The position numbers and the translations under genes are program-made. Below, one piece after another: positions 41,176 to 42,940 of a DNA stretch of 64,000 bases; position 1 is the first letter of the stretch, and every line of letters starts with the position of its first letter. Location of the stretch: assembly GCF_900104335.1 (NCBI RefSeq), contig NZ_FMXT01000004.1, forward strand, positions 1-64,000, given 5' to 3'. Source of the stretch: Pseudobutyrivibrio sp. YE44. Lineage in GTDB: Bacteria > Bacillota > Clostridia > Lachnospirales > Lachnospiraceae. The notes under the pieces were generated by a model. The model saw only the letters and a list, made by a program, of their open reading frames with translations, was not told where the DNA came from and did not search any database.

Positions 41176-41709
41176 TTATGCACCTAGTAAAATAGTATTT
41201 GAAGAATGTACTTTAACAGCATCTTCGAACATATGCTGAACAGAAGGAATATCCTTGCCCATTGAAAAAGCCATTTCCTCATAAAGCTTTCTGCCGGCTA
41301 CGCTTAAGATTTTCTCATCAATAGCCATAACCTTTTTTCCAGCTTCAATACGCTGCCATTTTCTGATTAAAACAGTCTTAACCACTCTGGCAAGAGATTC
41401 TGGTGTAAACTCACCCATAACCTCTTTAAATCTTTCCTGGAGCATTCTGTCGTTTGGTTCTTCGATACACTGAATATCGTCGATGTTGTCAAGGATTTTA
41501 GCAAATCTAGCCTCTTCTGCTACTGGACGTAACTTAACTGTCGAGCCTATAATTGGAGTAAAAACTTTGGCACCTGCCTTAAATACAGGTGACATGCAGT
41601 AGTAGGTCTTTCTCGAACCTTTGCCCATAAGCTCCATGTCATCGATATCTTCGATCTGACACACACCACTTCCCTCATGAACCAAATAATCGCCTACTTG
41701 ATATTCCAT
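41176..41709 (-). CDS. CarD/CdnL-family transcription regulator
   Basis: A 177-residue regulator. Residues 1-60 form the RNA-polymerase-interaction (Tudor-like) domain (YQVGDYLVHEGSGVCQIEDID...KTYYCMSPVFKAG) and the rest a helical DNA-binding domain ending SVQHMFEDAVKVHSSNTILLGA. CarD proteins stabilise open promoter complexes, notably at rRNA promoters in some bacteria. AAGGATGGTGAAAA precedes the start. A -10 box TATAAT at 41779-41784 on the minus strand precedes it, with no good -35. Confidence 0.85.
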   Translation of the reverse strand: MEYQVGDYLVHEGSGVCQIEDIDDMELMGKGSRKTYYCMSPVFKAGAKVFTPIIGSTVKLRPVAEEARFAKILDNIDDIQCIEEPNDRMLQERFKEVMGEFTPESLARVVKTVLIRKWQRIEAGKKVMAIDEKILSVAGRKLYEEMAFSMGKDIPSVQHMFEDAVKVHSSNTILLGA

Positions 41710-41867
41710 TTTTCACCATCCTTCTAATTGCTAAACAACACGTACCTCCACAACTTCAATCTCCCACAAAGTAGTTATATTATATCACGTTTTTTCTATT
41801 TTTTTAGCCTTCTAGACACAAAAAATTCACATTTGTTAATAATACACACGGCTTCCCTCGTTTTGCG

Positions 41868-41897
41868 TTGGCATTTAGTAAAAAATAACAATATATT
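41868..41897 (+). promoter_or_regulatory. Promoter candidate at the base of the giant hairpin
   Basis: TTGGCA (41868-41873), 18-base spacer, TATATT (41892-41897). A transcript from here would start near 41904, just before the first helix of the 690-nt inverted repeat. Confidence 0.55.
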
Positions 41898-41918
41898 CTG
41901 ACAGTTTCATTTCACTTA

Positions 41919-42581
41919 TTCCCCCACCTTCATTTATTCTATTTCTACATAACAAAGACCTCTCGTGTCCAGCGCCCCTCCTGCCGCCGCCCTCTCCTTG
42001 GTTTCTGACACTATCACAAAACACTGATTTTCTAATTCCTGCTTTTCGCTTTCTTATTAGTGGTTGTCCTTTATATTCTTTGCACTTTGTGCACTACAGT
42101 ATGTACTGCTCAGACACACACTATATATAAATAATTCTCTATCAGACTATATACAGATTAAGTGTCTGATTTTGTAATGAACCTAGTGGAATAGCAAATG
42201 AGTTTTGATAGATATGGGCAGACCGAGCCAAGGACGGCGAGGTCAAGGAAAGTTGAACACGGATGTGAATCTTGACTGGTGCCCATATCTACAAAACTCA
42301 CTTGCTTAATTCCACTTGGTGAATGGAGTATGAAGACACTTAATCTGTATATAGTCTGATAGGAGAATTAATTAAGCCTACTTGTGTCTGAGCTATACAT
42401 ACAGTAGCTTCAAAGTGCAAAACCAAATAAAGGACAACCACAAAAGCTCAAATTGCAGGAATAAGAAAATCTAGTGTTTTGTTCAAATGATGTCAGAAAC
42501 CAAGGAGAGGGCGGCGGCAAGTGGGGCGCTGGACACGAAAGATATGAGTAAATATGGAAATAGAATAAATGAATGGGGGAA
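41919..42581 (+). ncRNA. Giant rod-like inverted repeat (candidate large structured RNA)
   Basis: The two ~300-nt arms pair through 17 helices separated by sharply bounded internal loops. The main helices are 41929-41945/42557-42573 (17 bp), 41963-41978/42523-42538 (16), 41982-42010/42491-42519 (29), 42060-42074/42427-42441 (15), 42140-42167/42334-42361 (28) and 42209-42219/42281-42291 (11). About 206 bases per arm are paired. The 61-nt apex (42220-42280) contains GACC-GA-GCC / GGC-GA-GGTC with tandem GA mismatches around the loop AAGGAC. That motif is stable only when read on the plus strand, and a promoter lies at the base on the same strand. There is no ORF of note. A DNA-level element such as a MITE is the main alternative. 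Confidence 0.7.
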
Positions 42582-42596
42582 ATATTCAGAAATAAA

Positions 42597-42940
42597 AAAG
42601 GCCCGACTGTGAGCCGGGTTATGTCATTTAAAGTAGTCATCTATCTAGGACTGCTGTTGCCAACAGCCTCAAGCGTTCAACCTTGCGCTGGCGGGCCGCG
42701 TACGCGCATTTTAGAACTTGCTTCGGATGGGGTTTACATGGCTACCGCTGTTACCAGAGGTACGGTGGTCTCTTACACCGCCTTTCCACCCTTACCTGGA
42801 AAAACCAGGCGGTATATTTCTGTTGCACTATCCTTGGAGTTACCTCCACCGGCCGTTAGCCGGCATCCTCGCCCTGTGAAGCCCGGACTTTCCTCTCCCT
42901 AGGCACTACACCTAGGCAGCGACTACTCATCGGACCTTTA
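42597..42940 (-). ncRNA. rnpB: RNase P RNA (type A)
   Basis: The minus strand shows the conserved RNase P blocks: GAGGAAAGTCCGGGCT near the 5' end, ACAGAAATATACCGCC, GGTAAGGGTGGAAAGGCGG, AAGAGACCACCG, and AACCCGGCT close to the 3' end. The first ten bases (AAAGGTCCGA) pair with the last (TCGGGCCTTT) as helix P1. The ends were set by that pairing. It is followed by a T run that serves as terminator. It sits directly after the nucleoside kinase gene, 18 bp from its stop. Confidence 0.95.

Follow-up and report, generated by a model that had tools for sequence, protein, structure and literature searches.

The small RNAs (sRNAs) CsrB, CsrC and RsmX/Y/Z, which sequester CsrA, carry many CsrA sites each. 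Sections of a 2014 paper (PMC4333381) describe this sRNA class as identified, at that date, only in Gammaproteobacteria and propose that TwoAYGGAY, an RNA motif listed in 2010 from human gut, Gammaproteobacteria and Clostridiales (sections of PMC2864571), holds CsrA sites. At the DNA level, the Correia/NEMIS, ERIC and RUP repeats are small, non-autonomous and dispersed and form RNA structure if transcribed (excerpts of PMC2229807), and template switching is described as creating and maintaining RNA hairpins (excerpts of PMC8794818) and as homogenising the arms of inverted repeats and inverting their spacers (excerpts of PMC8604942). We analysed a quasi-palindromic element beside the RNase P RNA gene rnpB of Pseudobutyrivibrio sp. 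YE44 (assembly GCF_900104335.1). The element lies at positions 41919–42581 of a stretch of 64,000 nucleotides (nt), positions 1–64,000 of the forward strand of contig NZ_FMXT01000004.1, which is referred to below as the window. About 30 such DNA palindromes are inserted in the genome of this bacterium of gut or rumen, and most have at their tip a known RNA motif that resembles a decoy for CsrA, a regulator of motility. Its core is the known TwoAYGGAY motif, for which sequence comparison makes a good case for predicted CsrA binding; the new part of the finding is the arms, which are specific to each locus yet match each other within it. The comparisons make it reasonably probable that the element is a non-coding palindromic insertion of Lachnospiraceae that resembles a miniature inverted-repeat transposable element (MITE) and carries a candidate CsrA-decoy RNA.

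The element agrees with TwoAYGGAY RNA in its apex (59.9 bits, above the gathering threshold of 43), its two GGA hairpins and its Clostridial host, but its stem is hundreds of nucleotides long, locus-specific, multi-copy and within an insertion. With CsrB, CsrC and RsmX/Y/Z it shares GGA in hairpin loops and a proposed decoy role, but it offers two sites per RNA, exists as many DNA copies and is Clostridial. The general properties of Correia/NEMIS, ERIC and RUP given above recur here, but most copies lack a common terminal repeat, the outer arms are locus-specific and a probable protein-decoy motif is aboard. The mirrored changes, one-event restoration of Watson–Crick pairing and spacer inversion of template-switch hairpins (as described in parts of PMC8794818 and PMC8604942) also have counterparts here, but these involve hundreds of base pairs (bp) joined to a dispersed core at about 30 places in one genome. 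In the literature covered, which was partly limited to top-ranked matches and lay outside subscription papers and supplements (including those of the 2010 TwoAYGGAY paper), neither giant palindromes in Butyrivibrio relatives nor a mobile CsrA decoy were found described.

A strand-neutral self-alignment defines an inverted repeat of 663 nt (41919–42581) with exactly 17 perfect Watson–Crick runs (≥5 bp), of which the longest measure 29, 28 and 17 bp, precisely as an earlier sequence-only reading had described for two arms of about 300 nt. Folding of 41890–42600 gave −371.7 kcal/mol (z −23.8) for the plus strand and −396.9 kcal/mol (z −33.8) for the minus strand, and none of 20 shuffles folded equally well on either strand. 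The sharply bounded loops pointed out by the same reading are genuine, the mismatches being grouped in tracts in all 24 copies compared (mean of 30.0 tracts versus 38.5 if scattered). The outer arms extend over 41919–42026 (left, C/T-rich) and 42471–42581 (right) and are partners in the self-alignment and the arm comparison. The inner arms (left, 42027–42174; right, 42327–42470) are common to other copies found in the own-genome DNA search, and the plus-strand TwoAYGGAY motif occupies the centre (42175–42326). Among the matches listed, those elsewhere in the genome span only query positions 111–639 (41990–42518), and the outermost left arm (to ∼41989) and right arm (from ∼42519) have no other own-genome match. 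The open reading frames (ORFs) over the element, of 76 amino acids on the minus strand and of 109 on the plus strand (the latter mostly over rnpB), look spurious, in keeping with the lack of coding capacity noticed at the outset.

The left outer arm found its best right-arm match in its own partner at all 21 loci tested, with a median score of 57 for the own partner versus 8.5 between loci. These 21 are the copies that have 120 nt beyond the common core on both sides; the other places fell short of the requirement for flank or core. In 16 of the 21, the left outer arm is at least 57% C+T. Within a four-copy subfamily, six pairwise and non-independent comparisons gave 60 column differences mirrored in both arms, 63 confined to one arm and 81 of other kinds. 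In two other genera (genomes G122 and G176) an inverted repeat of 239–355 nt spans the apex in 16 of the 19 copies read. Most of these have GTCAAAAGG-like arms in common, so that it is in Pseudobutyrivibrio that arms are most clearly locus-specific throughout. That the outer arms were copied from the empty site is not supported at loci L006 and L007, since relatives there have gene ends that are 4 nt apart or overlap. The outermost arms at L065 are similar to the single terminator hairpin of a relative, and the matching arms run into gene ends at L008 and L081; both observations were made by eye and are suggestive only.

Selection of the rod at the RNA level should lead to tolerance of G–U over A–C on the transcribed strand. 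Arm mismatches on the apex strand comprised 75 G–T, 126 A–C and 389 others in 24 copies from the genome itself, 69, 102 and 302 in 20 other Pseudobutyrivibrio elements and 58, 61 and 159 in 21 elements from other genera, which pool to 202 G–T versus 289 A–C. For isolated mismatches, those with three pairs on either side, the counts were 24/23/76, 22/18/44 and 15/11/12 (G–T/A–C/other) in the same order, or 61 G–T versus 52 A–C when pooled. The apex stems likewise show no wobble signature (G–T/A–C of 16/15 in P1, 3/4 in hairpin 1 and 3/5 in hairpin 2). The control, 23 rnpB sequences of the genus with the Rfam structure, contained 161 G–T, 36 A–C and 62 other mismatches. From the 32 own-genome places, 24 copies form the own set, which excludes short, partial or N-containing ones and includes both L066 and L067; its four copies without an apex were oriented solely from their arms. 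Of the 22 Pseudobutyrivibrio loci and 26 loci of other genera entered for the other sets, 20 and 21, respectively, gave usable elements with corrected orientation. L135–L139 were dropped for unclear orientation, and L022, L046 and L048 were not entered. The sequence-only reading had named a large non-coding RNA and a double-stranded-RNA-like processing substrate as possibilities; the corresponding proposal, a giant structured RNA or double-stranded-RNA-like substrate of RNase III, would have the rod itself selected as RNA. The extreme fold z-scores, the sharply bounded loops with their clustered mismatches and an apex belonging to a known RNA family all suit that proposal, but outer arm sequence that varies by locus and the missing wobble preference in arms and apex stems, so unlike the 161/36 of rnpB from the same genus, make it quite improbable. 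Since the arms show no preference for G–U, their matching is probably maintained at the DNA level. Template switching would be the simplest means, and between arms it would yield Watson–Crick double changes without wobble.

A DNA search of the genome with 41880–42600, in which the best 40 of 51 candidates were scored, returned at least 63 matches that were grouped by eye into at least 32 places, seven of them at contig ends. Two apparently identical copies, L066 and L067 at the two ends of G000:C15, may be one, and their identity suggests a circular replicon or an assembly overlap. An element query matches 28 of 29 Pseudobutyrivibrio genomes, the own genome included; many of the matches span the apex region only, and a few genomes have weak matches only. 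Within the own genome, RF01731, the Rfam model of TwoAYGGAY, exceeded its threshold at 11 places; in the family, 35 of 200 genomes had such a match (in nine of the 35, the best 13 candidates were scored). BLAST with the element detected no part of the palindrome in the spacer between the CarD-like gene and rnpB in any of 23 readable relatives, where this spacer measures 200–378 nt versus 890 nt here; five further genomes of the genus were unreadable at the locus. For six other loci, with L077 left out, 20 regions were fetched from seven relatives, and no palindrome of this kind was present in one of one at L006, three of three at L007, four of five at L008, three of four at L065, two of two at L073 and four of five at L081. 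At some of the palindrome-less sites there are terminators or a short hairpin of another kind. The three filled relatives align best to the core of the YE44 genome in the opposite orientation, as expected of independent insertion or of spacer inversion, although three cases prove neither; one of them (L173) is without the apex, as judged by eye.

By these genome comparisons, the element was inserted here or, at the least, gained recently. Dispersed, non-coding and with relatives' sites that lack it, it resembles MITEs in these respects, and the MITE-like alternative offered by the sequence-only reading has proved largely right: the palindrome is missing beside rnpB in all 23 relatives read, and the element occurs at other loci. 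Among the own-genome matches listed there was no longer relative of the element (no search was aimed at transposase genes). Outermost arms that have no second match in the genome would fit a recent inverted duplication of local sequence. This origin was rejected as extremely improbable because dispersed copies contradict it, the inner arms and apex recurring elsewhere in the genome and the 23 spacers containing no part of the palindrome.

The RNA-like character of the apex was rightly recognized from the sequence and is already catalogued, cmscan assigning 42175–42326 of the plus strand to RF01731, which Rfam groups in clan CL00106. The GACC-GA-GCC/GGC-GA-GGTC arrangement reported for the apex is present at 42221–42244 (plus strand) as a hairpin with tandem G–A pairs and the loop AAGGAC, but the apex has a second hairpin as well, with the loop region ACACGGATGT (42257–42266, plus strand). 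The two terminal loops, AAGGAC and ACGGAT, are both of the AYGGAY type, the first with A in the Y position, and each contains the GGA found in hairpin loops of CsrA-sequestering RNAs. In 28 aligned cores from 26 genomes, GGA is present in loop 1 of 24, in loop 2 of 24 and in both loops of 22, a retention that is partly by construction, as a model of the motif served to find the cores; partial or N-bearing L043 and L045–L047 and eight of 11 own-genome loci were left out of this alignment. Double changes occur in at least one sequence at 28 of the 29 predicted apex pairs. Within the own genome, all 22 apex-bearing aligned copies have GGA in loop 1, and four of them, including the window copy, have it in loop 2. 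The apex-less own copies L070, L072, L079 and L081 are near-continuous palindromes of 468–648 nt, a kind that is usually unstable in bacteria. A scan for SbcD, the absence of which might let palindromes survive, gave only one match in the genome, below threshold (50.2 bits versus a cut-off of 77.65), and this match (L181, G000:C11:687–980) lies beside an element copy at a contig start.

CsrA exceeded its cut-off in 34 of 35 TwoAYGGAY genomes versus 74 of 165 others in the family sample (200 genomes of 199 genera; Fisher test, p 1.8e-9, overlaps tallied by eye). In the order sample, the corresponding counts were 21 of 21 versus 156 of 274 (Fisher test, p 2.4e-5), with four of the 21 TwoAYGGAY genomes under the Rfam threshold and some genomes common to both samples. 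The host itself encodes CsrA, with fliW and csrA adjacent. Among the leaders (140 nt) of its six flagellin-type genes, CANGGATG occurs three times, in two leaders, and the ACACGGATGT of one flagellin leader is identical to the second loop of the window copy. The predicted CsrA site of Clostridioides difficile fliC is TGACAAGGATGT in the sections of PMC8523840 that give it, and some TwoAYGGAY loops have GACAAGGATGT in common with that site. These data also bear on a transposable element that moves as a single-stranded DNA hairpin, the apex loops being read by a transposase without any RNA role and the CsrA link being incidental to motility or ancestry. The DNA-level pairing, the relatives' sites without the element, the arms kept in apex-less copies and the terminal-inverted-repeat-like ends of six of 24 copies are compatible with such an element, but it would leave unexplained the near-exclusive co-occurrence with CsrA, the identity of loop 2 in the window with a flagellin-leader stretch and the GACAAGGATGT shared with the predicted fliC site (PMC8523840, in part), and we regard it as rather unlikely.

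In the account that we favour, a MITE-like palindromic insertion with a candidate CsrA decoy, the arms would form a DNA hairpin or cruciform and template switching during replication would copy one arm onto the other. Such copying would keep each copy palindromic even as outer sequence free of constraint drifts; it may also bring the palindrome as far as adjacent stop codons, and it could flip the centre. The apex strand, when transcribed from its own or a read-through promoter, would present two GGA hairpins for binding of a CsrA dimer, and this RNA would act as a decoy that competes with flagellin leaders for CsrA, alongside FliW. A bolder version, which we advance only tentatively and consider doubtful, is a mobile CsrA decoy: a palindromic DNA parasite, spreading in tens of copies among motile Lachnospiraceae, that would mimic the flagellin-leader site, tune motility control through its copy number and use template switching to maintain and lengthen its arms, replacing adjacent host sequence as far as the neighbouring gene ends.

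Several observations weigh against the favoured account. One-arm differences in the subfamily are as many as mirrored ones, the outer arms at L006 and L007 do not look like copies of the empty site, and the excess of A–C over G–T on the apex strand is unexplained; in Pseudobutyrivibrio it would imply slightly more wobble on the minus strand, and it may be inflated by the shared ancestry of the copies. Simple template switching does not predict perfect stems beside fully different loops of roughly equal length, and the favoured account does not fully explain the sharp loop boundaries. As regards mobility, only six of 24 copies have the terminal-inverted-repeat-like end CTATTC[AC]CA in both arms, and the window copy is not one of these six; no firm target-site duplication was seen in the flanks read by eye. 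As regards the decoy, loop 2 lacks GGA in 18 of 22 own-genome copies and the apex is lost in four of 26 aligned copies, so a decoy role is unnecessary for persistence. One TwoAYGGAY genome (G168) has no CsrA match, and the co-occurrence, for which the statistics ignore relatedness, may stem partly from shared ancestry or motility.

If the account is correct, TwoAYGGAY, a motif of untested function, gains a probable ligand through genome co-occurrence, and a repeat family is seen spreading a regulator-binding RNA. About 30 giant palindromes in one genome would make the evolution of template-switch hairpins directly measurable. Watson–Crick covariation alone, by which RNA families are defined, could then come from DNA-level copying, and the count of G–U versus A–C would tell selection at the RNA level from such copying.

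By a simple ORF rule, the elements lie between called genes; short ORFs of 97–117 amino acids that overlap L008, L063, L074 and L075 look spurious. A gene was called on each side at 25 loci, of which 11 have convergent neighbours (beside the window copy, the right neighbour in this count is the spurious ORF over rnpB); at L006, L007, L008 and L065, four of the convergent loci, neither arm end is more than 10 nt from a called gene end. Together with the matching terminator-like stems seen by eye in the arms of several loci, this arrangement would suit a bidirectional terminator or insulator growing between convergent genes. We judge such an origin very unlikely, as 14 of the 25 loci are not convergent, the same sites in relatives hold a short hairpin or almost no spacer, and the conserved apex would have no explanation.

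The window copy is flanked by a CarD-like gene (41176–41709, minus strand; PF02559, 38.8 bits) and, on the opposite side, by rnpB (RNase P RNA class A; 42594–42938, minus strand), a terminator-like stem of which adjoins the palindrome. Extra sequence near query positions 196–210 interrupts the rnpB match at L099–L101 and L103 (genomes G226, G208, G204 and G212). The TTGGCA/TATATT promoter that had been read as pointing into the element does exist as a match at 41868–41897 (plus strand), but promoter-like sites are at chance level (two found versus 2.7 expected). A promoter belonging to the element was rejected, since the site lies outside the palindrome and a similar stretch occurs in relatives without it; by this comparison, the site predates the element. 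Upstream of the CarD-like gene, the region 41820–41905 contains TTCACATT.GTTAATAAT and an AATATA.TCTGACA block that recur in relatives, and it may hold the promoter of that gene. A different short dispersed hairpin occupies the rnpB locus of G220 and G208 (L095 and L100) and the L008 locus of G153 (L167). It has no Rfam match at the gathering threshold; its three occurrences share the centre CAAGCTC ... GGCTTGAG, as seen by eye, with outer stems that differ from place to place, and it may represent a second family with locus-specific stems.
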